Positions 21,582 through 37,466 of a stretch of 39,499 nucleotides of DNA are shown one piece after another. Numbering within the stretch: position 1 is the stretch's first letter; each line of letters begins with the position of its first letter. The notes below the pieces were generated by a model. That model did no database searches. It had not been told where the DNA came from and saw only the letters and a list, made by a program, of their open reading frames with translations. The stretch is from a virus. Where the stretch lies: IMG/VR virus record IMGVR_UViG_3300042914_001679, positions 1 through 39,499 of that record, one strand, 5' to 3'. Position numbers and translations under genes: made by a program.

Positions 21582-21724
21582 TTCTTCTCCCCTTTCAAGG
21601 TGAGTGGTAGTGTTTGATTGCGTTGTTTCACACAGGTGTGTGTTGGTGGTTGGGACGGTTTGATGTACAGCACTATCCGTTGTTTGCACCGTTCGCAGAC
21701 CCATTCGGATTGCTTGTCCGCCAT
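21578..21724 (-). CDS. 48-aa zinc-ribbon-like protein
   Basis: Starts MADKQSEWVCERCKQRIVLY, with CxxC at residues 10-13 and a third Cys at 31 (THTCVKQRN); a His may complete the site. The stop overlaps the SSB ATG (ATGA). It begins inside the 3' end of the secreted glycosidase gene, overlapping it by about 50 nt in another frame. Probably a small metal-binding accessory; function unknown. Confidence 0.6.
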   Translation of the reverse strand: MADKQSEWVCERCKQRIVLYIKPSQPPTHTCVKQRNQTLPLTLKGEKK

Positions 21725-22122
21725 TGATACCACTTCGGGAGTCCCCTTTCTGTGCTGTATTTCACTAATGCTAGTGCGGCCCGCAGGTTGATTCGTGGAT
21801 TTAACAGGTCCTCTTTGACCTTGATAATGCGGTTGTCTCTCAGGTAGCGAACCCACGAATAATCATTGACCTGCATAATGCCCCAGTCCGTTGACCAGAC
21901 AGAGCCGTCGGCCCTTTTGTTTAAGCCTTTGTTCCAGGGTATGCAACGTGATTCGCGGTGAGCGATTCGTAAGAGCTCCGGAAGGTCCCCTCGTTTGAAT
22001 CCCACTTCTAGTGCGACCGGAATAAGTTTTTTGCAGGTGGCCGGTATTTCGGTTGCTGCCCCGGCTCGGGCGGGCATGAGGTTGATAAGGACTAGGGATG
22101 CCAAGAGCGCGGATTTGCGCAT
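21673..22122 (-). CDS. Secreted SLT-type lytic transglycosylase/lysozyme
   Basis: 149 aa. Signal peptide: MRKSALLASLVLINLMPARAGA, likely cleaved after GA near 22. The catalytic region follows: IAHRESRC with Glu57, DWGIMQVNDYSW (79-90), then DLLNPRINLRAALALVKYS, the order found in SLT/goose-lysozyme-like enzymes that cleave the glycan strands of peptidoglycan. A signal peptide means export by the host Sec system, unlike the M15-type peptidase in the lysis block. AAGGAG 7 nt before the ATG is a strong site. It sits between recombination genes and SSB, so it may help cell-wall passage or lysis; which is not decidable here. Confidence 0.8.
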   Translation of the reverse strand: MRKSALLASLVLINLMPARAGAATEIPATCKKLIPVALEVGFKRGDLPELLRIAHRESRCIPWNKGLNKRADGSVWSTDWGIMQVNDYSWVRYLRDNRIIKVKEDLLNPRINLRAALALVKYSTERGLPKWYQWRTSNPNGSANGANNG

Positions 22123-26272: not shown

Positions 26273-26899
26273 TCAAGCCTTCAAACCTTTCCGTCCCTTT
26301 TTCTCTTTACGGGTTGGTTTGACAACCTTTGTTGCTTGTTCAACAGCACCGCCTGTGATTTCGGCAGGGAGACTGTCACAATCGAAACATTCGAGGTGCC
26401 AGATTTCAAACTCTTTGTTGTTCGGGTCGCCAACACCCCACGCCCAACCAAACTTTTCACAGTTCGCCTTCAGCCAATCAACATGTTTTTGAGAGCCACC
26501 AAGGTTGATAAGTTTCTTGTTGACGATTGCAGCACAGTCGATGGCCGCCGCGAAACCATGCTTTGAGGTGCCGGGGGTGCCAGCTGGGGCCATACCTTCC
26601 TTGAGAAACCAGGTCTTTCCCTTGTAGGTGCGGGTAATCTGGGGGACGCGCTTCGAGGGCTTGGTGCTGTAACGGGATGCGAACAGTGACTCTTGTTCCT
26701 TAAGGGTACGTAGGGCTCCAACGTGGGAGAACTCCAGACCCTCAGCCTTGGCCGCATCAAGCATCGCGTTCCACGCCTTCGCTGCCTTCCAGTAGAGCTG
26801 TCCGTAGGGTTTGATATTTGACAGCAGATGTGCGGGGATGTCGCCGTTGGGGCACTTTTCAAGTTCCTTGGGCAGAATAAATTTCCGGCTGGGGTACAT
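26273..26899 (-). CDS. M15-type peptidase endolysin (VanY/D-Ala-D-Ala carboxypeptidase-like)
   Basis: 208 aa. Metal-binding motifs of family M15: SKHGFAAAIDCA with His114 and Asp121, and EIWHLECF with His168. The enzyme cuts the D-Ala-containing peptide cross-links of peptidoglycan to release progeny. The mid-protein GALRTLKEQESLF near 61-73 is the usual helix before the active site. No signal peptide is present, so passage to the wall needs a holin; several small membrane proteins surround it. The Lys-rich end (RKEKKGRKGLKA) may bind the wall or DNA. Its ATG overlaps the previous stop (TGATG). Confidence 0.85.
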   Translation of the reverse strand: MYPSRKFILPKELEKCPNGDIPAHLLSNIKPYGQLYWKAAKAWNAMLDAAKAEGLEFSHVGALRTLKEQESLFASRYSTKPSKRVPQITRTYKGKTWFLKEGMAPAGTPGTSKHGFAAAIDCAAIVNKKLINLGGSQKHVDWLKANCEKFGWAWGVGDPNNKEFEIWHLECFDCDSLPAEITGGAVEQATKVVKPTRKEKKGRKGLKA

Positions 26900-27099
26900 C
26901 AGTCATCTCCTTTAGAGTCAATGTAAGCGGTTCCTACCAGCGCGGCGAACAAAACACCGGTGATGTAGAGGGCTTGTGTGCGGGTCGCCCCAGAGAGGGT
27001 GATGATGACATATGCGCTGCCGCACATTGCGGCGACGATGGTCGCTGTATGTCCTAGAAACTTGCGCACGGTGGCGAGATTATCATTTGCGTCGGGCAC
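26899..27099 (-). CDS. Holin-like membrane protein, two spans
   Basis: 66 aa from a GTG at 27099. Two hydrophobic segments, GHTATIVAAMCGSAYVIITL (about 16-35) and ALYITGVLFAALVGTAYI (about 43-60), have short charged ends (SKGDD). Class II holins have exactly this layout and size. It lies directly before the M15-type endolysin, sharing TGATG with it, which is the standard holin-lysin order. It overlaps the mucin-like gene by 17 nt. Confidence 0.7.
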   Translation of the reverse strand: MPDANDNLATVRKFLGHTATIVAAMCGSAYVIITLSGATRTQALYITGVLFAALVGTAYIDSKGDD

Positions 27100-28402
27100 C
27101 CATAACGACTGGGCTGGCAGCTAAAACTGCGCCAACCACAACAAGTGCACGGCGTTGAGCGACTGTCACGGTTTGGTTGGCTGGGACGTAATTGTCGAAT
27201 CCTCCACCGAAGATGTTGACTTCTTCTTCAAAAGCTTCTTTGACTTTTGGCGGTGCTACTGACAATTCTTTGGCGAGTTGGTCTAGTTGTTGACCGGAAA
27301 GTTGGTCAAGGTTTTCGGCAATCTCGGTGATGACCGCTTCAACTTGCTCGTCCGTAGGGTTCTCGGGGAGGGCCGCTATAGGCTCCTCTACAGACCAACT
27401 AACTGTCGTAGTTGTCGTCGTCTGGTCCACCATCATTGTCGTCGCCACGGGCCTCAGAGGCGGGTTTGGCGGGACGGTGGTGGTGGTAGGCGCCAAAGAT
27501 GTCACGGTGGTGGCGGTTTTGGCCAGGCTGGTGGGGGCAACAGTCACCAAACTGGTCGTAGAGCTGGACCCCATCAACCCCAACGTTGTCGAAGGGGCCA
27601 GGGATGTCGTAGATAACGATGTTGATTCGGTAGGAAGGGTGGTTTCGGGCAACGTCGTGGAGGCCAATATCTCGGGCAATGTCGTCGGGGTTAACGTCGA
27701 TGTCGGAAAGCTGCTCGTTGACGATTCCAGCAAACTGCTGGAAGTAGTGGACTGAATCTCTGGCTCGCTCGTAGGCGGCACGGTGCTCGTTGTCGTCGTA
27801 ATGCTCGGCCATACCTGCACCGTAGTGGAGGTGGACGTAGAAGGCAAGGATGTTGTTTCTTCAACCGTTGTTGTCGGTTCCTCAGTTGTCGTGGTTGGCG
27901 GTTCGGTCGTCGTTGTAGACATCTCAGTTGTCGTTGTAGGCACATCGGTTGTCGTTGTAGACCCAACAGTTGTTGGTATTACAGCAGTCAAATTCGCTGA
28001 CAGGTCATACTGCACCCCAGACCACCAAGCATCCGGATTACCACAACACACCCCTGCGCGAAGCCGATACCAACCCGGCTGTAGTTCTATTGACAGGTGC
28101 GATTGCAACCCGTACCAGTCGTCGTTCGCAACAAGCAACACACCCAGGTCGTTATATAACCAAAGCATCGGGTCGGAGCCGTACCCAGCGACAGCGTAGG
28201 TGCGGACCTCAAAGACTGTGGTGGTATCGAAGTGATACCAATAGTCGGTGGCCTGCGTGACCCGCAGGTTCTCAGCTTTAACAGTTGTCGCTAAAACGAT
28301 AAGGCCAAGTCCTGCCCCGACTGCTAGGGCTTTACTCGCCCGACGGAGTCTCAGGCTTCTTGCCGAAGGCAATCGCCACTTCCTCCTTGGACAGAACTCC
28401 AT
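27083..28402 (-). CDS. Thr/Ser-rich mucin-like surface protein with PPC-like domain
   Basis: 439 aa, in order: a basic N-terminus and a hydrophobic stretch ALAVGAGLGLIVLATTVKA (about 25-43, signal or anchor); a beta domain about 45-145 with PMLWLYNDLGVLLVANDDWY and ELQPGWYRLRAG, resembling bacterial pre-peptidase C-terminal (PPC) or jelly-roll domains; a stalk of about 200 residues of TTTT/PTTTT-type repeats; an acidic helical part near 350-395; and a C-terminal span ALVVVGAVLAASPVVMG with RRK after it. The Thr-rich stalk is what O-glycosylated mucin-like cell-surface proteins have. It lies within the lysis block between two holin-like genes. Host-surface display (superinfection exclusion, adhesion) or a lysis role are both open. 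Confidence 0.7.
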   Translation of the reverse strand: MEFCPRRKWRLPSARSLRLRRASKALAVGAGLGLIVLATTVKAENLRVTQATDYWYHFDTTTVFEVRTYAVAGYGSDPMLWLYNDLGVLLVANDDWYGLQSHLSIELQPGWYRLRAGVCCGNPDAWWSGVQYDLSANLTAVIPTTVGSTTTTDVPTTTTEMSTTTTEPPTTTTEEPTTTVEETTSLPSTSTSTTVQVWPSITTTTSTVPPTSEPEIQSTTSSSLLESSTSSFPTSTLTPTTLPEILASTTLPETTLPTESTSLSTTSLAPSTTLGLMGSSSTTSLVTVAPTSLAKTATTVTSLAPTTTTVPPNPPLRPVATTMMVDQTTTTTTVSWSVEEPIAALPENPTDEQVEAVITEIAENLDQLSGQQLDQLAKELSVAPPKVKEAFEEEVNIFGGGFDNYVPANQTVTVAQRRALVVVGAVLAASPVVMGARRK

Positions 28403-28577
28403 CCTCAGCCCAGAACTTGAGGAGTTGCTCGGTCACTTTGGCGGCGGCCATGAATCCTGCGAGACACGCAGCCTTCCACAGTTCGACGTTGATGATTGCA
28501 CCACCGGCTAGGGCGGCAAGAGCCGACGAACCGAACACCGCAAACACGCGGCCGATAACTGACTGAATCTTAACCAT
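28332..28577 (-). CDS. Holin-like protein
   Basis: 81 aa, MVKIQSVIGRVFAVFGSSAL, then AALAGGAIINVELWKAACLA and GFMAAAKVTEQLLKFWAEDG, with a charged tail (LSKEEVAIAFGKKPETPSGE). Two weakly hydrophobic helices followed by 'DG.L..EE...AF' is a pattern I associate with actinophage holins, which open the inner membrane at lysis. GGAG precedes the ATG. It comes directly after the tail-collar gene and overlaps the mucin-like gene by 71 nt. Confidence 0.7.
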   Translation of the reverse strand: MVKIQSVIGRVFAVFGSSALAALAGGAIINVELWKAACLAGFMAAAKVTEQLLKFWAEDGVLSKEEVAIAFGKKPETPSGE

Positions 28578-32753: not shown

Positions 32754-33530
32754 TCAGATACTAGCACCGAACTTTTTGTCCAGCCGTTCTGCGTATTCGG
32801 CTGCTATCTGTGGCACTAACTGCTGTATCAGCCCGTTCATTGCTCGTTGTGCTGATGCAGGGTCGATGTGCTGGAGGTAAAGGATTTTGGGGATGTGGGC
32901 TATTTGGGTTGCGAGGGCTGTGCGGACGATGAGTTCGTAGTCGTCGGCTACTCGCAGGTTCGGGTTGTGGCCTCCGATGGCTTGGTAGGTGGAGGCCCGC
33001 CATGCCCGCACATGGTTCGGGGCTGAAACGATGTGGCTGAGGGTTGTGCGGTTTATCGGGACCCGGCAGGCCCAGACTTGCAGCGTCTCGTCCCAGTAGT
33101 GGGAGCCGTAGCCGAGGCCCCACCCGTCGGGATAGCGCAGGCTGGAACCGTCCGGGTAGACCTCTGCGCAGTCCGAGTAGGCGAACCCGACAGACGGGTT
33201 TGTGAAGGCTGTGGCGAGTTCCTGAAGGCAGTCTGGGGTCAACTGGTCATCGTGGTCGGCTTCGACGAGGATGTCTCCGAGGCCGAGGCTGAACGCCATC
33301 TTCTTGACGTAGCCGATGTTGCCGCCGGAGGGGACATGGGGCCGGAAGTATCGGATTCTGTAACGCTCGTCGGAGCACATTCCGTAGACCTGTTGCTGGA
33401 CTGCGGTGGTGGTGGAGTCGTCGTATACAAGCCATTCCCAGTCGGTGTAGGTCTGGTTTTTTAGTGAGGCCCAGAGTCGGGCTAGGACACTAGGGTTCGT
33501 GTTGTACGTCGGGGTGACGACAGAAATCAT
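32754..33530 (-). CDS. GT2-family glycosyltransferase in the tail block
   Basis: 258 aa from the ATG at 33530 (a TTG at 33551 would overlap the fibre gene). It opens MISVVTPTYNTNPSVLARLW, then WEWLVYDDST, GGNIGYVKKMAFSLG and ILVEADHDDQLTPDC, where the YDDS and DHDD motifs bind the nucleotide sugar and metal of a GT-A enzyme. Later FAYSDCAEVYPDGS and NLRVADDYELIVR are typical family 2 acceptor-side segments. It follows the tail-fibre gene directly, suggesting it modifies the fibres or the host envelope; the target is not shown by sequence. Confidence 0.82.
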   Translation of the reverse strand: MISVVTPTYNTNPSVLARLWASLKNQTYTDWEWLVYDDSTTTAVQQQVYGMCSDERYRIRYFRPHVPSGGNIGYVKKMAFSLGLGDILVEADHDDQLTPDCLQELATAFTNPSVGFAYSDCAEVYPDGSSLRYPDGWGLGYGSHYWDETLQVWACRVPINRTTLSHIVSAPNHVRAWRASTYQAIGGHNPNLRVADDYELIVRTALATQIAHIPKILYLQHIDPASAQRAMNGLIQQLVPQIAAEYAERLDKKFGASI

Positions 33531-33534
33531 GTGG

Positions 33535-34215
33535 TTACGGTATTGGACCAATGTCCATGACGTTTAACTGGTGAGGCAAAGAGGCAGAACCAACAATTCC
33601 GTCCGGGTCTGGGTTTAGCGCTCCGCTTGAACCACAACGCCAGTAAAGATTCAATGTTTTTGACGAAGAACTGCTTGTAACGCCAAAGGCAGCGGCATCT
33701 GTCAATAGCCAACCCTGAAATAGTTGGCAATAATACTGCGTTATGGCAAGGGTGTCATACGCAAGTGTTTTGTTACCCAATGTTGTTTCGCCAACATACA
33801 ACACATTTGATGTTGCGGCTGTACCCGTAACCTGAACGCCGACCCTACCGTGAATCATGTATCGGCGGCCCGCAACAACCGTAAAAGAAGCATTCAACAC
33901 ATTCAATGCTGTAGCAGCAGAAAAAGACGTTGTTGCGGTTGACGCAGTATGAAGAACCATGCCCCACGGCATATTCCACGGTTTCGTGCTGATGTTAACG
34001 CTGGAAGACTCTCCACTTGATGAACCGCTAATTGCGTTAAACCAAGTTGAGCCGTCCTGCGACTTGCTGAGATAATCCCACGCAGCCCCATCCCACACCC
34101 GCAAATAACCCGTATCCGTCTCATAAATAACCTGACCCGTATACGGAGAACCAGGGCGGGTGGTTGAGGTGCAAACGCCAGGGCGTAGACCGGTCGCAAG
34201 ATTAGACAAACTCAT
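33535..34215 (-). CDS. Tail-fibre protein, paralogue of the fibre at 34370
   Basis: 226 aa. The start (LRPGVCTSTTRPGSPYTGQV, then IYETDTGYLRVWDGAAW) is a short tail-docking module shared with the gene at 34370-34969. After that the two sequences differ completely; here the rest is a Ser/Thr-rich beta region (SSSGESSSVN; FSAATALNVLNASFTVVAGR) ending PHQLNVMDIGPIP. Same docking part with different tips is what swappable receptor-binding fibres look like. ATG overlaps the previous stop (ATGA). Confidence 0.7.
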   Translation of the reverse strand: MSLSNLATGLRPGVCTSTTRPGSPYTGQVIYETDTGYLRVWDGAAWDYLSKSQDGSTWFNAISGSSSGESSSVNISTKPWNMPWGMVLHTASTATTSFSAATALNVLNASFTVVAGRRYMIHGRVGVQVTGTAATSNVLYVGETTLGNKTLAYDTLAITQYYCQLFQGWLLTDAAAFGVTSSSSSKTLNLYWRCGSSGALNPDPDGIVGSASLPHQLNVMDIGPIP

Positions 34216-36458: not shown

Positions 36459-37466
36459 TTATGCTCCTACATCCGTCGTAATAATCGCCGTGAACTTCGA
36501 ATCGTTCATCGGGTCAGTAGACACAGCAGAGTTTACCCATTGACTACTAGCCGTACTGTAAACCAACGCCTGACCATTCGCCGGAGTGCCGGTAATCGTC
36601 ACATCCGTCAAACCATCAAGCGTCTGCGAACCTTGAGGACCTTGAGGACCTTGAGCACCCTGCGGACCTGAAGCACCAGTTAAACCAACAGCGCCTTGCG
36701 GTCCCTGAAAACCAATAGGACCCTGAGCGCCCTGCGCACCTTGAGGACCTTGGAATCCTTGAGGACCTTGTGCTCCTTGAGCGCCTTGAGCACCCTGCGC
36801 ACCTGTATCCCCCTGAGGTCCTTGGAAACCCTGCGGGCCCTGAGCGCCTTGAGTGCCCTGTGCGCCCTGTGCGCCCTGCGGACCAGTATCACCCTGCGGG
36901 CCTTGCGTACCCTGAAACCCTTGAGGACCCTGAGCACCCTGGGCACCCTGAGGTCCCGTATCACCTTGCGGTCCTTGTGTACCCTGAGGACCCTGTGAAC
37001 CCTGAGGACCAGTATCCCCCTGAGGACCTTGCGCTCCTTGAACACCTGTTGCACCTTGAGGTCCCTGAGCGCCGGTCGGTCCCTGAGCACCTTGAGCGCC
37101 TTGTGCACCAGTTGCTCCTTGAGGACCCGTATCTCCCTGTGGACCTTGGAAACCCTGAGGACCCTGTGAGCCTTGCGCTCCGGTCGCTCCTTGCGCTCCC
37201 TGCGCACCCGTGGCCCCCTGAGCACCAGTAGCGCCCTGTGGGCCTTGCGTACCCTGCGGGCCTTGCGTACCCTGTGCACCTTGAGCTCCTTGAGCTCCTT
37301 GAACACCAACAGGGCCGACATTTTCCGAACCGACAACAGTTATTGCGGTGACCGCCGCAACATCAATATTTGAAACGGTTCGCGTCAACGTCACATAGAC
37401 CGCGTTAGCGGACGATACCCCTACCGTTTCCTCGGAACGGTCAACCGTAACCGAAACCGATGCCAC
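36459..37466 (-). CDS. Collagen-like tail-fibre protein
   Basis: 335 aa from a GTG in TAGTG with the previous stop. A 50-residue N-terminal beta domain ([20 protein letters not shown]) is followed by about 77 uninterrupted Gly-x-y triplets (51-281, mostly GPQ, GAQ, GTQ), then a C-terminal part [30 protein letters not shown]. The Gly-x-y run forms a triple-helical rod, giving a long trimeric fibre shaft. The terminal 'LDGLTDVTI' module is common in phage collagen fibres and may nucleate trimerisation. The Gln-rich y position suits bacterial collagen, which lacks hydroxyproline. The coding repeats are a recombination hot spot. Confidence 0.85.

Follow-up and report, generated by a model that had tools for sequence, protein, structure and literature searches.

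The gene at positions 27083-28402 on the minus strand of virus record IMGVR_UViG_3300042914_001679 (39,499 bases, analysed over its whole length and referred to here as the window) is a real phage gene. Its product is a surface protein that is exported and anchored in the membrane, with a head of sugar-binding type carried on a long stalk rich in threonine. The protein is apparently a member of a large, virus-only and undescribed family. Both its near-obligate pairing with a small downstream-encoded protein of two transmembrane (TM) segments, the TLSG partner, and the location of the family in lysis cassettes are well supported. The function that we infer for the pair is that of a two-component complex, which would be displayed at the cell surface at the stage of lysis and would engage glycans of the host envelope. 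This is the best of the readings considered, and it is held at a little under even chances. The features of the gene and of its surroundings are collected in Table 1.

Table 1. Features of the large gene, its neighbours and the accompanying LPXTG proteins (window positions unless a locus is named)
Feature	Position	Strand	Description or basis
Large gene, whole	27083..28402	-	439 aa: signal peptide, PPC-fold head, Thr-rich stalk, helical C-terminal module, hydrophobic segment, RRK tail
Signal peptide, residues 1-43	28274..28402	-	...RRASKALAVGAGLGLIVLATTVKA before ENL; by eye and hydropathy
PPC-fold head, residues 44-140	27983..28273	-	AlphaFold and PDB fold matches
Mucin-like stalk, residues 141-345	27368..27982	-	Composition: 62% Thr+Ser+Pro
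Conserved C-terminal module, residues 346-418	27149..27367	-	Short helical domain and VKEAFEEEVNIFGGGFDNYVPANQTVTVAQRR; family alignment, helices in L079 model
C-terminal hydrophobic segment and basic tail, residues 419-439	27086..27148	-	ALVVVGAVLAASPVVMG and ARRK; hydropathy
Partner gene, 'TLSG' family	26899..27099	-	66 aa, two TM segments; phrog_29041, function unassigned in PHROGs; directly downstream, 17 nt overlap with large-gene end
Holin-like gene	28332..28577	-	81 aa, phrog_26427 (PHROGs); upstream of large gene
Endolysin	26273..26899	-	208 aa, VanY/M15 D-Ala-D-Ala carboxypeptidase family; Pfam VanY E 2.7e-15
Second LPXTG family, locus L005	6882-8324
Second LPXTG family, locus L137	2451-4010
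Second LPXTG family, loci L043, L048, L096, L114, L159

The reading frame is intact and runs as a single frame through all 439 codons. Its nearest relative, on contig IMGVR_UViG_3300046010_007397 (L022), shares 95.5% DNA identity with it over 1,809 nt aligned without gaps; 13 of the 17 changed codons are synonymous, 13 of the 17 substitutions fall on third positions, and the repeat region also contains synonymous changes. The repeat region is therefore translated in the frame of the gene, and the frame error that an earlier note on this DNA had considered for the repeats is excluded. The protein gave no significant match in Pfam, NCBIfam or PHROGs. Its start codon is uncertain, and two candidates stand side by side: ATG at 28402, which entails an overlap of about 70 nt with the upstream gene, and TTG at 28372, which has a perfect Shine-Dalgarno sequence (AAGGAGG, 28382-28388) nine bases upstream and corresponds to CTG in L022.

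Signal peptides were assigned by eye and hydropathy. The N-terminus of the window protein looks like a normal cleavable signal peptide ending VKA/EN, and 67 of the 68 full-length nonredundant relatives likewise start with what resembles a signal peptide and its AxA-type site. The earlier note had described an exported surface protein that is doubly anchored. The signal-peptide pattern bears out the export, whereas the double anchoring is probably wrong for the window protein, because its N-terminus resembles a signal that is cleaved.

The segment behind the signal peptide (residues 43-145) was modelled by AlphaFold as a beta sandwich (pLDDT 89, pTM 0.82). A fold search against the PDB placed PPC/collagen-binding domains at the top (E 1.6e-4, TM-score 0.62-0.67), among them 1nqj_A (TM-score 0.67) and 5sv5, a pre-peptidase C-terminal domain. 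Of 38 family members compared with Pfam, six carry PA14, four fn3, two an L-type lectin (best E 1e-40), two a SUEL lectin and two PPC, the window protein not being one of the last; three of the 38 match DVUA0089 of NCBIfam. The head type interchanges across the family between PPC, PA14, L-type lectin and SUEL-lectin-like modules, which are types that often bind carbohydrate, and the heads are candidates for glycan binding. The resemblance of the window protein to DVUA0089/PPC domain proteins lies in the head fold and extends to nothing beyond the head.

The stalk that follows comprises 205 residues, with 35% Thr, 16% Ser and 12% Pro and just two Lys or Arg residues. A stretch of 60 residues with at least 60% Thr, Ser and Pro occurs in 63 of the 68 full-length relatives. 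In L014, L015 and L016, about ten acidic TSP3-like repeats (DTDGDGVFDAEE..), which are probably calcium-binding, stand in place of the stalk. The window also codes for a family-2 glycosyltransferase (32754-33551, minus strand; E 4.5e-17), and in L089 a similar glycosyltransferase lies directly ahead of the large gene; the enzyme is possibly linked to glycosylation of the stalk.

The last 95 residues served as the first query for relatives and an alignment as the second, and the module pattern VKEAFEEEVNIF..YVPxGSxVxVxxRR followed by a hydrophobic segment was recovered in at least 133 viral contigs. Its fuller form across the family reads VKEAFEEE[VI]N[VI]F-x-GGFDxYVPxGSxVxVxxRR, with the hydrophobic stretch next, and the window protein agrees with the consensus VKExFEEE[VI]N[VI]F..YVPxGSxVxVxxRR and its hydrophobic segment. 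The module is constant across the family, whereas length, linker and head are variable, the 68 full-length nonredundant members ranging from 355 to 1,443 residues. The hydrophobic segment of the window protein (ALVVVGAVLAASPVVMGA) has a mean KD of 2.28 and is flanked by RR and RRK. In some members the segment is short and weak, with a mean KD down to 0.87, and the invariant basic residues beside it lie on the putative outer side, contrary to the positive-inside rule. Comparison of the module with the PDB, by sequence and by fold using a C-terminal model, gave nothing significant, and Pfam, NCBIfam, PHROGs and the PDB yielded nothing beyond weak helical-bundle matches. The module is new, and it may serve as an anchor.

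The pairing with the TLSG partner was assessed in 75 nonredundant groups, 71 of which have enough 3' sequence for the partner to be counted. It is present in 70 of these 71 loci, either as a separate gene or fused, and in 15 of the 75 groups it is fused to the C-terminus of the large protein. A first set of loci gave 94 of 95; the HMM for the partner had been seeded with ten members, whose loci are circular in that count, and this is offset by a reciprocal search, in which the large protein lies immediately upstream of the partner in 76 of 78 loci and one gene further up in L137 (77 of 78 in total). A search from the TLSG partner alone retrieved 531 viral relatives. Fusion is also seen in phage DSL-LC01, whose large protein (WJZ48438.1, 'hypothetical protein') carries a TLSG homologue at its end in one reading frame.

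Of ten fused genes in which the junction holds a Met, eight retain a strong Shine-Dalgarno sequence of the GGAGG type just before this Met. In L028, L031, L052, L053, L058, L064, L078 and L079, GGAGG and ATG are found ahead of the two-TM part, about 60-65 codons before the end of the reading frame. Because most fused genes that have such a Met keep a ribosome site just before it, the partner may additionally be made from them as a free protein; some fused genes have no clear internal start for it. The model of one fused C-terminus (L079; mean pLDDT 76, below 50 in the linker) consists of a helical domain, a helix of TM length, a disordered linker, a beta hairpin and a TM hairpin. The partner gave no holin match in Pfam, and comparison of profiles revealed no similarity between it and the neighbouring holins.

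The gene order in the window is tail fibre, holin-like gene of 81 aa, large gene, partner and endolysin. Family-wide, 58 of the 71 nonredundant loci have a lysis gene, either holin-like or an M15 endolysin, no more than 2 kb away. An M15/VanY endolysin is found within this distance in 42 of them, without exception on the strand of the large gene and usually at 0.75 kb or less, and a holin-like gene in 48; two of the neighbouring holin families match r1t-type holins. The 13 other loci are without a recognised lysis gene within 2 kb, and in DSL-LC01 the endolysin is about 4.6 kb off and on the opposite strand. The PPC-like head, the mucin-like stalk, the C-terminal span and the place inside the lysis block, all proposed in the earlier note, are thus upheld along with export, by the fold matches, the composition, the hydropathy and the family-wide neighbourhood, respectively; its double anchoring and its host derivation (discussed below) are not, and the near-obligate downstream partner had been missed.

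Several further genes deserve mention. The family phrog_26427 is labelled 'nuclease' in PHROGs, yet it is a hydrophobic protein of about 80 aa in lysis cassettes; a member of this type in L091 matches the holin family phrog_443 (E 2.9e-6), and the label is probably an annotation error. Elsewhere in the window, an SLT/lysozyme-like protein of 149 aa (21673-22122, minus strand), which has a signal peptide of its own, is a second wall enzyme and possibly holin-independent, and a collagen-like tail protein (36459-37466, minus strand) bears a long tandem-repeat array (Pfam Collagen 1.7e-38). Several loci of the family also code for a second family of exported phage proteins, with the mature start GGGPMVLDGMDPACHAVYGEGTENYIAKVL..., a Thr-rich stalk and a canonical LPXTG sorting signal, and in L101 an LPXTG end occurs on a protein other than the GGGPMVLDGMDPACHAVYGEGTENYIAKVL family. 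These companions are an independent sign, which suggests that such phages put proteins on sortase-bearing host surfaces. L101 and L137 had seemed to have an LPXTG protein in place of the family protein; in L137, however, the family protein stands one gene further up, and the 5' end of L101 is truncated, so that these loci support neither a replacement of the family protein nor an exchange of the anchor module for an LPXTG signal.

In 84,980 cellular genomes, no relative of the C-terminal module was found with short exact peptide patterns, which distant relatives could escape. The same genomes, searched for the TLSG partner with patterns of the same kind, gave one match, on a 6.9-kb contig binned as Flavobacteriales (CALKUW010000343.1, L176); it carries an M15 endolysin, the large gene with its partner and two holin-like genes, and is evidently a piece of phage DNA that was mis-binned. 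Of the 50,697 phage records queried with four C-terminal variants and a partner, DSL-LC01 alone has the pair. This metagenome-assembled lake phage was judged to be an actinobacteriophage by its authors, and the text examined from their paper mentions neither the large protein nor the partner (PMC10611076). The host is likely to be actinobacterial, because the window terminase is nearest to those of Streptomyces phages (27-32% identity), WhiB-like genes were recognised by eye in related loci, and the LPXTG signals fit Gram-positive hosts.

In the lysis-stage reading that we favour, the large protein would be a late product of the lysis cassette, working with the two-TM protein encoded downstream. 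The signal peptide would carry it out of the cell, and its head (PPC here; PA14, L-type lectin or SUEL-type in relatives) would be held beyond the cell wall by the extended stalk, which is probably O-glycosylated. The helical module and the hydrophobic segment would together form a membrane anchor with the C-terminus inside, where it would join the two-TM partner. At lysis, the membrane-anchored pair would engage surface glycans of the host and help to loosen the last envelope layer, a role resembling that proposed for LysZ, from which it would differ in size, build and topology. In favour of this reading are the partner in 70/71 loci and its fusion in 15/75 groups, the nearness of lysis genes in 58/71, the r1t-type holins, the signal peptide in 67/68, the heads of carbohydrate-binding type, the LPXTG companions and the precedent of LysZ, following its description in PMC13056207. 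Against it count the 13/71 loci with no lysis gene nearby, the distant, opposite-strand endolysin of DSL-LC01, the partner's want of holin similarity, the weak hydrophobic segments and the basic residues on the putative outer side. Nor are phages of Gram-positive hosts known to require spanins.

The elaborate, swapped heads and the LPXTG companions suit adhesion or masking equally well, and receptor masking is the strongest rival. Late display would bind or hide the receptor glycans of the host, sparing progeny from loss on debris and blocking superinfection; T5 Llp provides the model for this logic, here transposed to an actinobacterial surface. An exported and anchored protein whose lectin-type heads swap between phages, a stalk suited to reaching past the wall and LPXTG-anchored surface proteins in the same loci all fit such a role. 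Exclusion genes are usually early or prophage-expressed, however, and a gene that sits in the lysis block in 58/71 loci is unlike them; masking also leaves the near-obligate two-TM partner unexplained, and we regard it as rather unlikely, albeit to be taken seriously. The partner would find a place in an unusual holin system, as the hole-former, with the large protein as its timing or regulatory (antiholin-like) subunit. It is small, has two TM segments and lies in the lysis cassette, its internal ribosome site is often kept in fused genes, and in Girr the two-TM, holin-like LysF1a adjoins a second TM protein (PMC13056207). Such a system is nevertheless improbable, considering that separate holin-like genes occur in 48/71 of the same loci, that the partner has no profile match to neighbouring holins, and that some fused genes, having no clear internal start, would lock it to a very large ectodomain.

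An adhesin, which would clump infected cells or tie them to new hosts or particles and so aid transmission, would account for the head-stalk-anchor plan and for the PA14 and lectin heads but not for the lysis-cassette location, and the chance of it is slight. A role in the virion, as a tail or decoration protein, might be read from the adjoining tail genes and from the two of 38 relatives that weakly match a major-tail-protein PHROG (E ~1e-5); the tail matches are confined to these two, which speaks against the tail-protein homologues that had been weighed in the earlier note, and with a near-universal signal peptide (67/68), a C-terminal hydrophobic segment and a membrane partner that is near-obligate and often fused, this role is judged very unlikely. 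Folds of the PPC, PA14 and lectin types are widespread among bacteria, and a host origin had been raised previously. For the module and the partner this is largely refuted, as neither was found in the 84,980 cellular genomes, the phage-fragment contig excepted, and acquisition of a host surface protein by the phage is scarcely credible; the heads alone could be host-derived.

Little is known about phage exit from Gram-positive cells whose envelopes are thick and rich in glycans, and lysis studies cover few actinobacterial phages. Hundreds of environmental phage contigs carry the pair, the only annotated phage genome found being that of DSL-LC01, with its 'hypothetical protein'. It may represent a virus-exclusive two-component system for surface display, probably of actinobacterial phages, in which a lectin-headed stalk with interchangeable heads and a two-TM partner would be deployed from the lysis cassette on the outer glycan layer; this broader proposal is tentative, with the balance of probability somewhat against it. 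If true, it would correspond, in Gram-positive hosts, to the spanin step, or would be a device for progeny protection, with no cellular or cultured-phage precedent. The pair offers a clear candidate, open to test, for an additional step at lysis or at the surface, and a useful marker for uncultured phages that probably infect actinobacteria. Phage isolates exist for the Nanopelagicales (PMC10202952). Searches of the open-access literature found no account of the family, and the pair is not described there or in the family libraries and structure databases searched.

Among known systems, LPXTG sortase-anchored proteins share with the window protein a signal peptide, a head, a Thr/Pro-rich stalk and a C-terminal motif with a hydrophobic segment and a basic tail. 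Unlike theirs, the C-terminus of the family is a helical domain ending YVPxGSxVxVxxRR, which can be fused to the two-TM protein; no LPXTG-type motif precedes the hydrophobic segment in residues 388-439 of the window protein, and this identity is thereby ruled out. Spanins (Rz/Rz1 and gp11-type) are likewise accessory lysis proteins that reach from the membrane outwards. They are characterised by an N-terminal anchor or lipobox with a coiled-coil ectodomain and by a lipoprotein partner, which are missing here, and the relatives, in contrast, co-occur with r1t-type holins typical of Gram-positive hosts. The signal peptide, the C-terminal hydrophobic segment, the beta-sandwich head and the missing lipoprotein partner rule out a spanin, and the homologues are not the plain spanins that the earlier note had also allowed for.

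Two further parallels come from phages of Actinobacteria. LysF1a and LysF1b, of mycobacteriophages Girr and NormanBulbieJr, combine a two-TM protein with an N-out/C-in single-TM protein beside it in the lysis cassette (PMC13056207); LysF1b has 124 aa with an outside part of 22 residues, as against several hundred residues and a lectin-type head in the window protein. The nearest functional precedent, by analogy, would be LysZ, which PMC13056207 describes from the Corynebacterium phages CL31 and Cog: a lysis-cassette membrane protein of 177 aa, with a proposed N-in/C-out topology and a proposed action on lipid-anchored envelope glycans. Going by that description, both are membrane proteins with an outside domain from lysis cassettes of actinobacterial phages. 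For LysZ a single TM segment, N-in/C-out, is proposed, whereas the window protein has a signal peptide and is probably N-out/C-in; unlike LysZ as there described, it has a mucin stalk, a head that can be swapped and a two-TM partner of its own. Accessory membrane proteins were already known from lysis cassettes of actinophages, and what is new is the lectin-headed, mucin-stalked, two-component form.
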